A DNA stretch of 34,309 bases from Cyanobacteria bacterium SIG29 (lineage in GTDB: Bacteria > Cyanobacteriota > Vampirovibrionia > Gastranaerophilales > Gastranaerophilaceae), in assembly GCA_015152515.1 (NCBI GenBank), contig SUTV01000010.1, positions 1 to 34,309 of the forward strand, in the 5' to 3' direction. Position 1 is the first letter of the stretch. Each line of letters opens with the position of its first letter. Below the pieces are notes generated by a model. It was not told the origin of the DNA. It ran no database searches and was given only the letters and a program-made list of their open reading frames with translations. This document shows positions 21,589 through 24,160 of the stretch, one piece after another. Both the position numbers and the translations under genes were made by a program.

Positions 21589-23076
21589 TTATTTTACTAC
21601 AAACAAAATATCTGTTGAAAGTGCGTTTTGTAAATAATAATTATAGTCTTGTGATGGTCTATAATATTTTGATTTTAGCTTTTCATTCCTTATGAATAAG
21701 CAGTTATCTTCATCTGCATATATATATGCATAATCTTTTCTTTTTCCTAAATAGTCGTTAATTAGTCCATTTCTTGGTGTGATTATATAGTCGTGAGTTA
21801 AGCCAATGTCAAGGATTTTGTCCCAGTCTTTTGTTACATTATAGAAGTTATCAAGTAAATCTTTTGTGTTTTTAAAATAAACTTCTTCATATCTTCCATC
21901 CATATATATAAGGTTATTAGGATAAAGCTTGTAGGTTATATAGCTACCCATATCAAAAGGAGCTAAAATATTGCCTTTTAGTTCGTTTATTTTTATGAAT
22001 TCAACAACTTTATATGGTTGTAAGCTAATATTAGGAATTGGTTTATTGTATACGATTATATTTAGAGCGTGTATTAAAACAAAGAAATAAGCAACATAAT
22101 ATATTGCTTTTGTATCTACTTTAAATTTTTTGAAAAAGCTTAAAATATCACCATATAAGAATATTATTGATGTAATTATAAAAAATGGTGTGTTTTTAAT
22201 GTATTTAAAAGATAAGTATGCACATATAATTAAGATGATATATTTAACTGCATCTTGTTTGAATTTTTTTAAATTAAATAAAAGTATTATTAAATTTATT
22301 ATATAGAAAATTTTAAATTCAATAAAAAATAGCCAATTGTTGTGTGCAAATGGACTAATCCATTCTGTTACGAAAGGTCGAGGCATTGTAGTTGCCATAA
22401 AGATAAATTTGACATATTCAAATCCATATGGATTTATAAACATAACAAGTGTGCAAGCTAGCATTGTATATATATAAGGTAAAAATTTTCTTTTATTGAT
22501 GAATTCACCTAGTGCATACATAAATAAAAGCCCTAGACCAGAAACGCAACCACCGTGTATGTTTACCCATAAAATCATTATTAGTGGTAATGCTATTAAT
22601 AGTCTGTATTTTTCGTGTTTTCTAATATATTCAAGTAAGAAAATAAATAAACTAAAGAAAAAGAATGTAAAAAAGTGACATCTGAGAGCAGACATTGTTA
22701 TTGTAGGAATAGCATATGCCCCTATAATGAAAAGTGATAGACACAAGAGTGTATTTGTTTTTTCTTCTCTTAATCTTATAGTTTCAAATAATAATATAAA
22801 TATAGATGTTACTAGTAGTGTTCTAAATATATGTATTCCTATATATCCAAAATGGTTTTGTATGAAGGAAAAAATAATGCTTGAACCCCATTCGTGGTCT
22901 AGCCAAAGATGGGTTTGTGTATAGGAAAAAGGGTCTTGTTTTAAGATTGTACCTAATTGCCAGAATGCATTACCTTGTAAAATTCTTGCCCAATAATCCA
23001 TATCAATAGCATTATTAATCAGTGCTAATGAATATATAAATATAAATATAAGTATGTAAAATAAGATTCTTTTCAT
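21589..23076 (-). CDS. Polytopic membrane protein, possibly GT-C glycosyltransferase-like
   Basis: A 495-residue protein with about ten hydrophobic segments from residue 4 to about 360 and a soluble C-terminal region. The first loop contains DMDYWARILQG and KQDPFSYTQTHLWLDHEWGSS. The acidic residues and DPFSYT...HEW pattern recall the first periplasmic loop of GT-C membrane glycosyltransferases (ArnT/PMT-like). The C-terminal region has NLIYMDGRYEEVYF, seen in uncharacterised relatives. No family can be named with certainty. It opens a minus-strand operon, with the U32 gene seven bases downstream. No Shine-Dalgarno is present before the ATG; TATATT lies eight bases upstream. Confidence 0.75.
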   Translation of the reverse strand: MKRILFYILIFIFIYSLALINNAIDMDYWARILQGNAFWQLGTILKQDPFSYTQTHLWLDHEWGSSIIFSFIQNHFGYIGIHIFRTLLVTSIFILLFETIRLREEKTNTLLCLSLFIIGAYAIPTITMSALRCHFFTFFFFSLFIFLLEYIRKHEKYRLLIALPLIMILWVNIHGGCVSGLGLLFMYALGEFINKRKFLPYIYTMLACTLVMFINPYGFEYVKFIFMATTMPRPFVTEWISPFAHNNWLFFIEFKIFYIINLIILLFNLKKFKQDAVKYIILIICAYLSFKYIKNTPFFIITSIIFLYGDILSFFKKFKVDTKAIYYVAYFFVLIHALNIIVYNKPIPNISLQPYKVVEFIKINELKGNILAPFDMGSYITYKLYPNNLIYMDGRYEEVYFKNTKDLLDNFYNVTKDWDKILDIGLTHDYIITPRNGLINDYLGKRKDYAYIYADEDNCLFIRNEKLKSKYYRPSQDYNYYLQNALSTDILFVVK

Positions 23077-23127
23077 AGGAATATAATATAATCATTTGTT
23101 CTTTTAGTCTTATTATTAAGAAATGTG

Positions 23128-23160
23128 AAGCCGAAAAACCTTGATTTTACGGCTTTTTTT
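23128..23160 (+). terminator. Plus-strand intrinsic terminator in front of a minus-strand gene
   Basis: AAGCCG (23128-23133) pairs with CGGCTT (23150-23155), extended by an A/T stem with one bulge, and is followed by seven T. The T tract is on the plus strand, although the nearest gene (23076) is on the minus strand. So it must end a short plus-strand transcript or antisense RNA. Confidence 0.65.
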
Positions 23161-23216
23161 ACTTTTTTAAAAAAATAGTTAAATAAATAATTAAAGTTTG
23201 AATCTAGAATGTCGAT

Positions 23217-23297
23217 AACAATATTGTCAAGGGCAACAGCCCCATAAAACCTCCCTCCCCAAAGTCTAGTAGCCGCCTTAGTGACGGCTTTTTTTTT
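23217..23297 (+). ncRNA. Candidate small RNA with C-rich, anti-Shine-Dalgarno-like unpaired tract
   Basis: About 80 bases can be read as a small RNA. A TAGAAT -10-like hexamer lies at 23205-23210. Downstream come a GGGC-AACA-GCCC tetraloop hairpin (23231-23242) and about 28 unpaired bases containing ACCTCCCTCCCC (23249-23260). A terminator hairpin AGCCG/CGGCT (23271-23275 with 23285-23289) and nine T complete it. The C-rich tract stands out in an AT-rich region, and ACCUCC is the anti-Shine-Dalgarno core of 16S rRNA. Two hairpins flanking a pyrimidine-rich single strand is also the plan of cyanobacterial Yfr1, whose conserved word (ACUCCUCACAC) is different. The terminator is strong; the RNA itself is inferred. 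Confidence 0.55.
23271..23297 (+). terminator. Intrinsic terminator of the candidate small RNA
   Basis: AGCCG pairs with CGGCT around a nine-base inner region that allows one more C-G pair. Nine T follow at 23289-23297. Confidence 0.8.
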
Positions 23298-23605
23298 GCT
23301 TGTTTTTGAGTGATGTGAATATATATATGTTTTAAATGTTCTTTAATAAACATATATTATATTGTTATTTATATACAAAATTAGTATAAATCAGCCAGAT
23401 TTTTGATATTTTTATCAAGAAATACCAATTTTAAACCTATATATTAAGTTTTGTAAAGATGAGTATATACCGATGTATATATTGATTTTATTGAGTTTTT
23501 AGTCATTTTGAAAAAATAGTATATACTTTATACATACTTTTTATGCAATTTTCATTTTTGAAATGTTTTTATATAAGTACGGATACGAAATGAGGATTTA
23601 CAAAA

Positions 23606-24160
23606 ATGGGTTACGCTTTATTTGCACAAAGAAAGATTGTTTTAACTGGACAAATTAACACAGTTAGTTTACAACAAACACAACGTTCTAACGAACAATA
23701 TATGTTAGCAACACAAACATTATCATTACAACAACAAATGACATCAATGCAATCATCTCAAGCATTTGAATTATCATTAAAATATGAAGAATTAGCTAGA
23801 GTTGGTCAAGTATATAACGAACAAAGTGAAAGCTGGGAAAGTGCATACGAGAAAAAAGGTGACAAATGGTATGATGCTAACGGCAAAGAAATTTCTTCAG
23901 ATGAAATGCAAGATGCAATTGATAACGAAAGAAATAGAATCAACGCTGATATTAAAAAAATTGAACAAGAAAACCAAGCTGAATTAGACGAAATTAACAG
24001 ACAAATTTATTTAGTAGGCGTTAAAGAAAATGCAATTGAATTAGAAGTTAAAAGATTAGATACAGCAATCTCTGCATTACAAAAACAACTTGAAGCAGTT
24101 GAAGAAGCAGAAGGCAGCGCTATCGACAGAGCTACACCAAAATTCAACGGTGTTGGTTAA
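23606..24160 (+). CDS. Coiled-coil protein of unknown function, probably well expressed
   Basis: A 184-residue soluble protein starting MGYALFAQRKIVLTGQIN. Gln/Ser/Thr-rich helices follow (about 18-60, with repeated LQQ and SLQQQM), then a small SWESAYEKKGDKWYDANGKE turn. Long acidic coiled coils run at about 104-172 (ADIKKIEQENQAELDEINRQ, LDTAISALQKQLEAVEEAE), and the tail ends in ATPKFNGVG. No Cys, signal peptide or membrane segment. Codon choice is richer in C-ending codons (AAC, GAC, ATC) than in neighbouring genes, as expected of high expression. TGAGGA precedes the ATG by nine bases, with TATAAG at 23572-23577 as a possible -10. The Gln-rich helical build recalls filament or secreted structural proteins, but I assign no function. 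Confidence 0.78.
   Translation: MGYALFAQRKIVLTGQINTVSLQQTQRSNEQYMLATQTLSLQQQMTSMQSSQAFELSLKYEELARVGQVYNEQSESWESAYEKKGDKWYDANGKEISSDEMQDAIDNERNRINADIKKIEQENQAELDEINRQIYLVGVKENAIELEVKRLDTAISALQKQLEAVEEAEGSAIDRATPKFNGVG

Follow-up and report, generated by a model that had tools for sequence, protein, structure and literature searches.

The locus considered here raises the question of whether a short, C-rich segment encodes a small RNA that holds an anti-Shine-Dalgarno (anti-SD) strand open between two hairpins, and, if it does, how such an RNA would be transcribed and on what it would act. The segment lies in the window, that is, the whole stretch of 34,309 nucleotides that was analysed (contig SUTV01000010.1 of Cyanobacteria bacterium SIG29). 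The host order, Gastranaerophilales, consists of non-photosynthetic gut relatives of cyanobacteria. A preliminary description of this DNA had proposed a small RNA gene of this kind, and both the predicted fold and the conservation support it. The hairpin GGGC-AACA-GCCC, the C-rich tract, the terminator stem and the nine T are confirmed in sequence and fold. The C-rich run, which had been called exceptional, deserves the word: ACCTCCCTCCCC (23249-23260) is the sole match in the window even when one mismatch is allowed, with 0.03 expected from shuffles. Judged at the level of sequence, the observation is real and above chance expectation, and the evidence for it is conservation.

The predicted RNA is approximately 73 nt long. 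Along the plus strand, it runs from a short 5' lead through the hairpin, CAU, ACCUCCCUCCCC, AAAGUCUAGU and the terminator stem to the U run, with an open stretch of approximately 28 nt (Table 1). Taken alone, the sequence folds with an unremarkable energy, only mildly below that of shuffles (z -1.4 to -1.5), and the case for an RNA therefore rests on comparison and conservation. A terminator pattern scan of positions 22900-23700 listed none. A second terminator-like stem (GCCG...CGGC, then a T run) is visible at 23130-23160 on the plus strand, just upstream of the promoter, and no plus-strand gene was seen before it.

Table 1. Features of the locus and the grounds on which each was placed.
Feature	Position in window	Strand	Basis
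Small RNA gene	23225..23297	+	R1 model match in own genome; 5' end predicted from distance to promoter, to within a few bases; 3' end taken as the T run
-35 element TAAAGTTT, sigma-28 (FliA/WhiG) type	23192..23199	+	exact match
-10 element GTCGATAA, preceded by 11-base spacer	23211..23218	+	match to FliA consensus
5' hairpin GGGC-AACA-GCCC	23231..23242	+	predicted fold
CAU, possible anti-start-codon	23243..23245	+	CAT enrichment just upstream of tract
Exposed C-rich tract ACCUCCCUCCCC, anti-Shine-Dalgarno	23249..23260	+	sequence uniqueness, alignment, unpaired probability
Conserved GUCUAGUAGCCG, single strand and terminator 5' arm	23264..23275	+	7 of 12 bases invariant in 75 sequences (alignment A1)
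Intrinsic terminator: stem AGCCG/CGGCT (23271-23275/23285-23289) and nine T (23289-23297)	23271..23297	+	fold, RNAalifold

A blastn search with the 93-mer spanning the segment gave matches in 66 of 98 relatives. The query held the -10 element and not the -35 element, and copies were selected by the RNA core. Removal of 7 chance matches from 86 pattern matches left 79 copies, of which 75 form alignment A1; promoter counts refer to 78 copies, and fold and transcript counts to the 76 copies with a promoter match (72 distinct transcripts). Across the 79 copies, the C-rich tract and the T run are kept, as is GTCTRGTAGCCG apart from some differences; the 5' hairpin varies. Conservation extends beyond the tract into GTCTAGTAGCCG (23264-23275).

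A covariance model, R1, was built from 75 copies, and matches with E <= 1e-8 were counted as strong. Such matches are present in 73 of the 81 Gastranaerophilales genomes (genus of the present genome 34/41, other genera of its family 17/18, other families 22/22); the remaining eight are G004, G010, G018, G024, G031, G038, G039 and G043. A wider draw covered 292 genomes of the phylum and included 131 order members, of which 129 match strongly and two, G282 and G349, weakly. Conservation of the C-rich tract in relatives, which had been set beforehand as a test of the proposal, is thus borne out by both searches. Outside the order, strong matches were found neither in the 17 genomes from other orders of the class (best, a partial match at 4.6e-4) nor in 161 genomes of the phylum, where the best value, 6.4e-5, is similar to those reached by secondary matches inside the order. 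The figure of 161 counts 116 unlisted no-match genomes as outside the order, because the list was sorted by kinship.

The present genome carries one copy of the RNA. Several others carry more, such as three copies at 362-base steps in G073 (G073:C16:5958-6758) and pairs in G029 and G070. The exact core pattern was found in at least 116 stretches of named genomes; among the matches listed, most are labelled Candidatus Gastranaerophilales, uncultured or unnamed bacteria, or cyanobacterial or Melainabacteria bins, and two bear other labels, uncultured Clostridia and uncultured Brachyspira, perhaps mislabelled bins. A phage origin was considered and rejected, two core patterns giving 0 matches in viral contigs. 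As a separate observation, the RNA sits no more than 200 bases from the end of its contig in 9 of the 29 relatives' loci obtained from the blastn search (L007, L008, L010, L011, L013, L015, L019, L020 and L023), perhaps with a repeat alongside.

The predicted structure is retained while its letters change. A 5' hairpin of at least three pairs is predicted in 75 of the 76 copies, and the tract is mostly open, with a mean unpaired probability of 0.86 (above 0.7 in 79% of copies, lowest 0.58); in copies with CCCCGAGUCU, a weak CUC/GAG stem is predicted across it. Compared with its own shuffles, the 5' segment has a mean z of -2.8 over the 72 distinct transcripts. These transcripts show 31 apical stems, two of which are single pairs; examples include GGGC/GCCC, GACC/GGUC, GGUC/GACC and GGAC/GUCC. 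This variation indicates that the pairing of the 5' hairpin is maintained despite sequence change. RNAalifold, applied to the 75-row alignment, recovers the terminator stem only, because the 5' hairpins are not alignable by sequence. Start-to-stop frames of at least 10 codons occur in 13 of the 72 distinct transcripts; since most transcripts are without one, the RNA is read as non-coding.

The next question is what would transcribe this gene. The arrangement TAAAGTTT-N11-GTCGATAA (23192-23218) is the consensus of FliA (sigma-28), GCCGATAA. Of the 78 copies with sufficient flanking sequence, 76 have the core of this arrangement, TAAAG-N16/17-CG[AT], upstream; in shuffles, the mean is 0.53 and the maximum 2/78. 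The TAGAAT at 23205-23210, previously read as a -10 element, sits in the spacer of this conserved promoter, and a sigma-70 promoter at that point is rejected. Transcription would then begin at approximately 23225, somewhat downstream of the start implied by the older reading. A suitable sigma factor is available: FliA_WhiG scores above its curated cut-off in 90 of 98 genomes, including 77/81 in the order and 41/41 in the genus, and the present genome's own protein reaches 244 bits vs. a cut-off of 189.6 for FliA_WhiG and 225.5 vs. 201 for FliA. The two hallmarks of a sigma-28-dependent small RNA, a promoter of the consensus type and a sigma factor of the FliA family in the same genome, are therefore present. 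Very probably, the locus is a real RNA gene driven by sigma-28.

Flagellar genes are distributed differently from the sigma factor. Around the present genome's sigma gene, none were recognised by eye. FliG is found in 0/41 genomes of the genus, 6/18 of other genera of the family and 20/22 of other families of the order, and Flagellin_N in 2/41, 6/18 and 21/22, respectively; the present genome is 82.5% complete, and its absences count only jointly with those of the other 40 genus genomes.

The possible action of the RNA is suggested by its open strand. The 16S anti-SD sequence has CCUCC as its core. In 60 of the 79 copies, CAT occurs 2-8 bases ahead of CC(T)CC (CAT.{2,8}CC(T)CC), so that an unpaired anti-SD and an anti-AUG lie together between two stem-loops, as in streptococcal csRNAs. 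Among the genus copies, 32 of 37 have CAT just upstream of the tract, as do 28 of the 42 remaining copies, compared with approximately 0.17-0.18 expected from base shuffles, with kinship uncorrected. With CAU beside the CCUCC tract, the strand can therefore cover the SD and the start codon together. In the proposed mechanism, RNA polymerase with a FliA/WhiG-type sigma factor would transcribe a trans-acting RNA of approximately 73 nt in Gastranaerophilales. The two hairpins would protect the RNA ends and hold the strand open. This strand, CAU followed by CCUCC(C/U)CCCC, would base-pair, in selected mRNAs, with the SD and the start codon, and would thereby block translation of a limited mRNA set while the sigma factor is active. 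As in the preliminary description, we infer binding to GGGAGG or GGAGG ribosome sites in trans. Repression by pairing is the likeliest mechanism, and the reading as a whole, a trans-acting RNA made by sigma-28 that represses selected mRNAs by SD and start-codon pairing, is considered probable.

Neither start-site patterns in the present genome nor a pairing sample of 400 kb of it (366 script-predicted ORFs) identified a target. In this sample, the median pairing of the tract was -6.2 kcal/mol at first-ATG starts vs. -5.25 inside genes, and pairing at starts was no better than that of 20 shuffled tracts (medians -5.8 to -7.65). A larger difference between starts and genes is obtained with SD-chosen starts, which is selection bias and nearly vanishes with first-ATG starts. 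With SD-chosen starts, GGAGG lies ahead of 15 of the 366 ORFs and GGGAGG ahead of 2. Across the genome, GGGAGGN{2,12}ATG has 5 sites, one of which is the RNA's own complement, vs. 7 in the reversed control, and hence no enrichment; GGGGAGGN{2,10}ATG has 2 matches, again including the RNA's complement, vs. 1 in the control. One GGGAGGN{2,12}ATG site, with 61 open codons upstream, looks internal and was discarded, and another opens a 12-codon frame. Two weak candidate targets are a 244-aa membrane protein that by eye is Bax-inhibitor-1-like (L153) and a 400-aa protein of no assigned family (L156).

These results bear on the best-placed competing explanation, in which the sigma-28-driven RNA is real, but the principal partner of its strand, CCUCC(C)UCCCC-AA-GUCURGUAG, would be a protein or another RNA, such as a second small RNA. 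Conservation runs past any SD complement into GUCUAGUAGCCG, which SD pairing does not account for, and starts show neither an excess of matching sites nor better pairing than shuffled tracts give. A precedent for such a partner comes from cyanobacteria, where Yfr1 has a known partner RNA, Yfr2 (PMC6778093). The position of CAT before CC(T)CC in most copies, on the other hand, fits an SD-AUG complement, and the explanation is regarded as rather unlikely.

Highly improbable is a cis-acting element, either a plus-strand leader or attenuator for an adjacent gene or a minus-strand leader peptide for which GGGGAGGGAGGTTTTATG would supply the SD and start. Genes of one membrane-protein cluster are the nearest upstream neighbours in 27 of 37 genus copies, and in two copies from another family this cluster sits on the opposite side of the RNA. 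Both observations would suit a cis role, but otherwise the neighbouring genes, their strands and their distances mostly differ between families. The gene therefore looks free-standing, consistent with a trans-acting RNA. A sigma-70-like site is present on the minus strand (23230-23201), but the conserved promoter and the T run are both on the plus strand. The minus-strand frames span 1 to 28 codons, 9 of them open, and none exists in 19 of the 79 copies; with neither lengths nor sequences conserved, the leader peptide was rejected. As a side observation, a 184-aa protein that fits no clear family (its one Pfam match is below cut-off) is encoded at 23606-24160 on the plus strand, and several genus members have relatives of it downstream of the RNA.

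The least credible explanation is a distant Yfr1 orthologue with a drifted motif: the layout is the same, the size is similar (Yfr1 54-69 nt; PMC2190773) and the CUCCUC of ACUCCUCACAC recurs in the ACCUCCUCCCC form of other families, though not in the window's form, but the undecamer occurs in 0 of 72 distinct transcripts and R1 has no strong match in the 161 phylum genomes outside the order. Of the suggestion that this is an analogue or relative of Yfr1, the likeness of layout stands and the kinship is not supported; the remark that the conserved Yfr1 word is absent holds for all 72 distinct transcripts, and membership of Yfr1 is rejected on this motif. An Rfam scan of the region gave no Yfr1 match at E <= 10, the presence of the Yfr1 model in the scanned library being uncertain. 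Its five matches were at chance level (E 0.53-2.3) and far below the gathering score (e.g., RyhB 15.9 vs. 55 and suhB 13 vs. 41), and no family fitted. The RNA appears to be a new family, distinct from Yfr1.

Several known systems resemble this RNA in some respects. The csRNAs of Streptococcus, which belong to the CiaRH regulon, likewise have two stem-loops flanking an unpaired complement of SD and AUG; as described in PMC3091779, CAU is present in 53 of 61, with several related RNAs per genome. They are controlled by CiaR, whereas the promoter of the Gastranaerophilales RNA is of sigma-28 type; this RNA also has a longer C tract and the additional GUCUAGUAGCCG. Yfr1, as presented in PMC2190773, shares the two stem-loops, the unpaired middle and the 3' terminator, and the retained 5' hairpin and mostly open tract reported above reproduce this layout. 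Its unpaired stretch of 16-20 nt is shorter than that of the window RNA, its ultraconserved ACUCCUCACAC is lacking here, and the promoter here is of sigma-28 type. The streptococcal csRNAs appear to be at least as close an analogue as Yfr1. Cuckoo RNAs of Alphaproteobacteria, including alpha-r14 and CcsR, share an anti-SD motif, CCUCCUCCC (PMC3927594, PMC10746234). According to these accounts, they carry it in the loops of three or four hairpins, in contrast to one motif between two hairpins here, and CcsR is co-transcribed with a DUF1127 gene, whereas the present gene is stand-alone. Small RNAs under the flagellar sigma factor are described for E. coli (UhpU, MotR, FliX and FlgO; PMC10578931) and Campylobacter (CjNC1 and CjNC4; PMC4626219). 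The four from E. coli derive from the UTRs of protein-coding genes, and their host is flagellated, whereas the RNA described here is stand-alone and persists where FliG was not found. The nearest systems are thus csRNAs in mode, Yfr1 in layout, cuckoo RNAs in motif and the E. coli sigma-28 small RNAs in control, and none fits throughout.

The significance of the RNA lies in its link between an anti-ribosome-site strand and a sigma-28-type promoter in an order where part of the species lost the flagellum; it is kept even in species without flagella. For an uncultured gut lineage, it offers a handle on the role that a flagellar sigma factor plays when the flagellum is missing, and species with and without FliG inside one order provide a natural comparison. 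Loss of flagella within Gastranaerophilales has already been published (PMC4040986), in a paper whose main text contains neither "sigma" nor "fliA". In the open-access literature, no small RNA described for Gastranaerophilales was found, and nothing on point concerning sigma factors there.

It seems that both the RNA and the sigma factor persisted after the flagellum was lost. In 39 genus genomes, the promoter pattern has 124 sites vs. 13 in the reversed control, and the sigma factor therefore seems to have working promoters; the 124 include no fewer than 7 promoters of the RNA itself. In the present genome alone, a looser pattern shows no enrichment (21 vs. 19); ten of its sites lie 20-35 bases ahead of an ORF with an SD. 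As a positive control, the motif was found in only 4 of 20 flagellin upstream regions of flagellated relatives. Tentatively, and with some doubt, the flagellar sigma factor may have been kept after flagellum loss and may now run a different programme, of which the order-wide RNA would be a constant signature member, silencing other mRNAs when the programme is on. Part of the same guarded reading is that this programme might comprise small helical proteins together with EF-hand-like and other large proteins.

At five loci, no secretion-system neighbours of the small sigma-28-linked proteins were recognised by eye. Among the ORFs that follow sigma-28-type sites in the 39 genus genomes, inspection by eye distinguished two families of helical-looking proteins of 41-48 aa, as well as EF-hand-like paralogues of 180-490 aa and unknowns of approximately 480 aa. 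The loci of this sigma-28-type regulon in the genus without FliG are L350-L378, L102, L104, L107, L108, L114, L116, L117, L119, L121 and L122.
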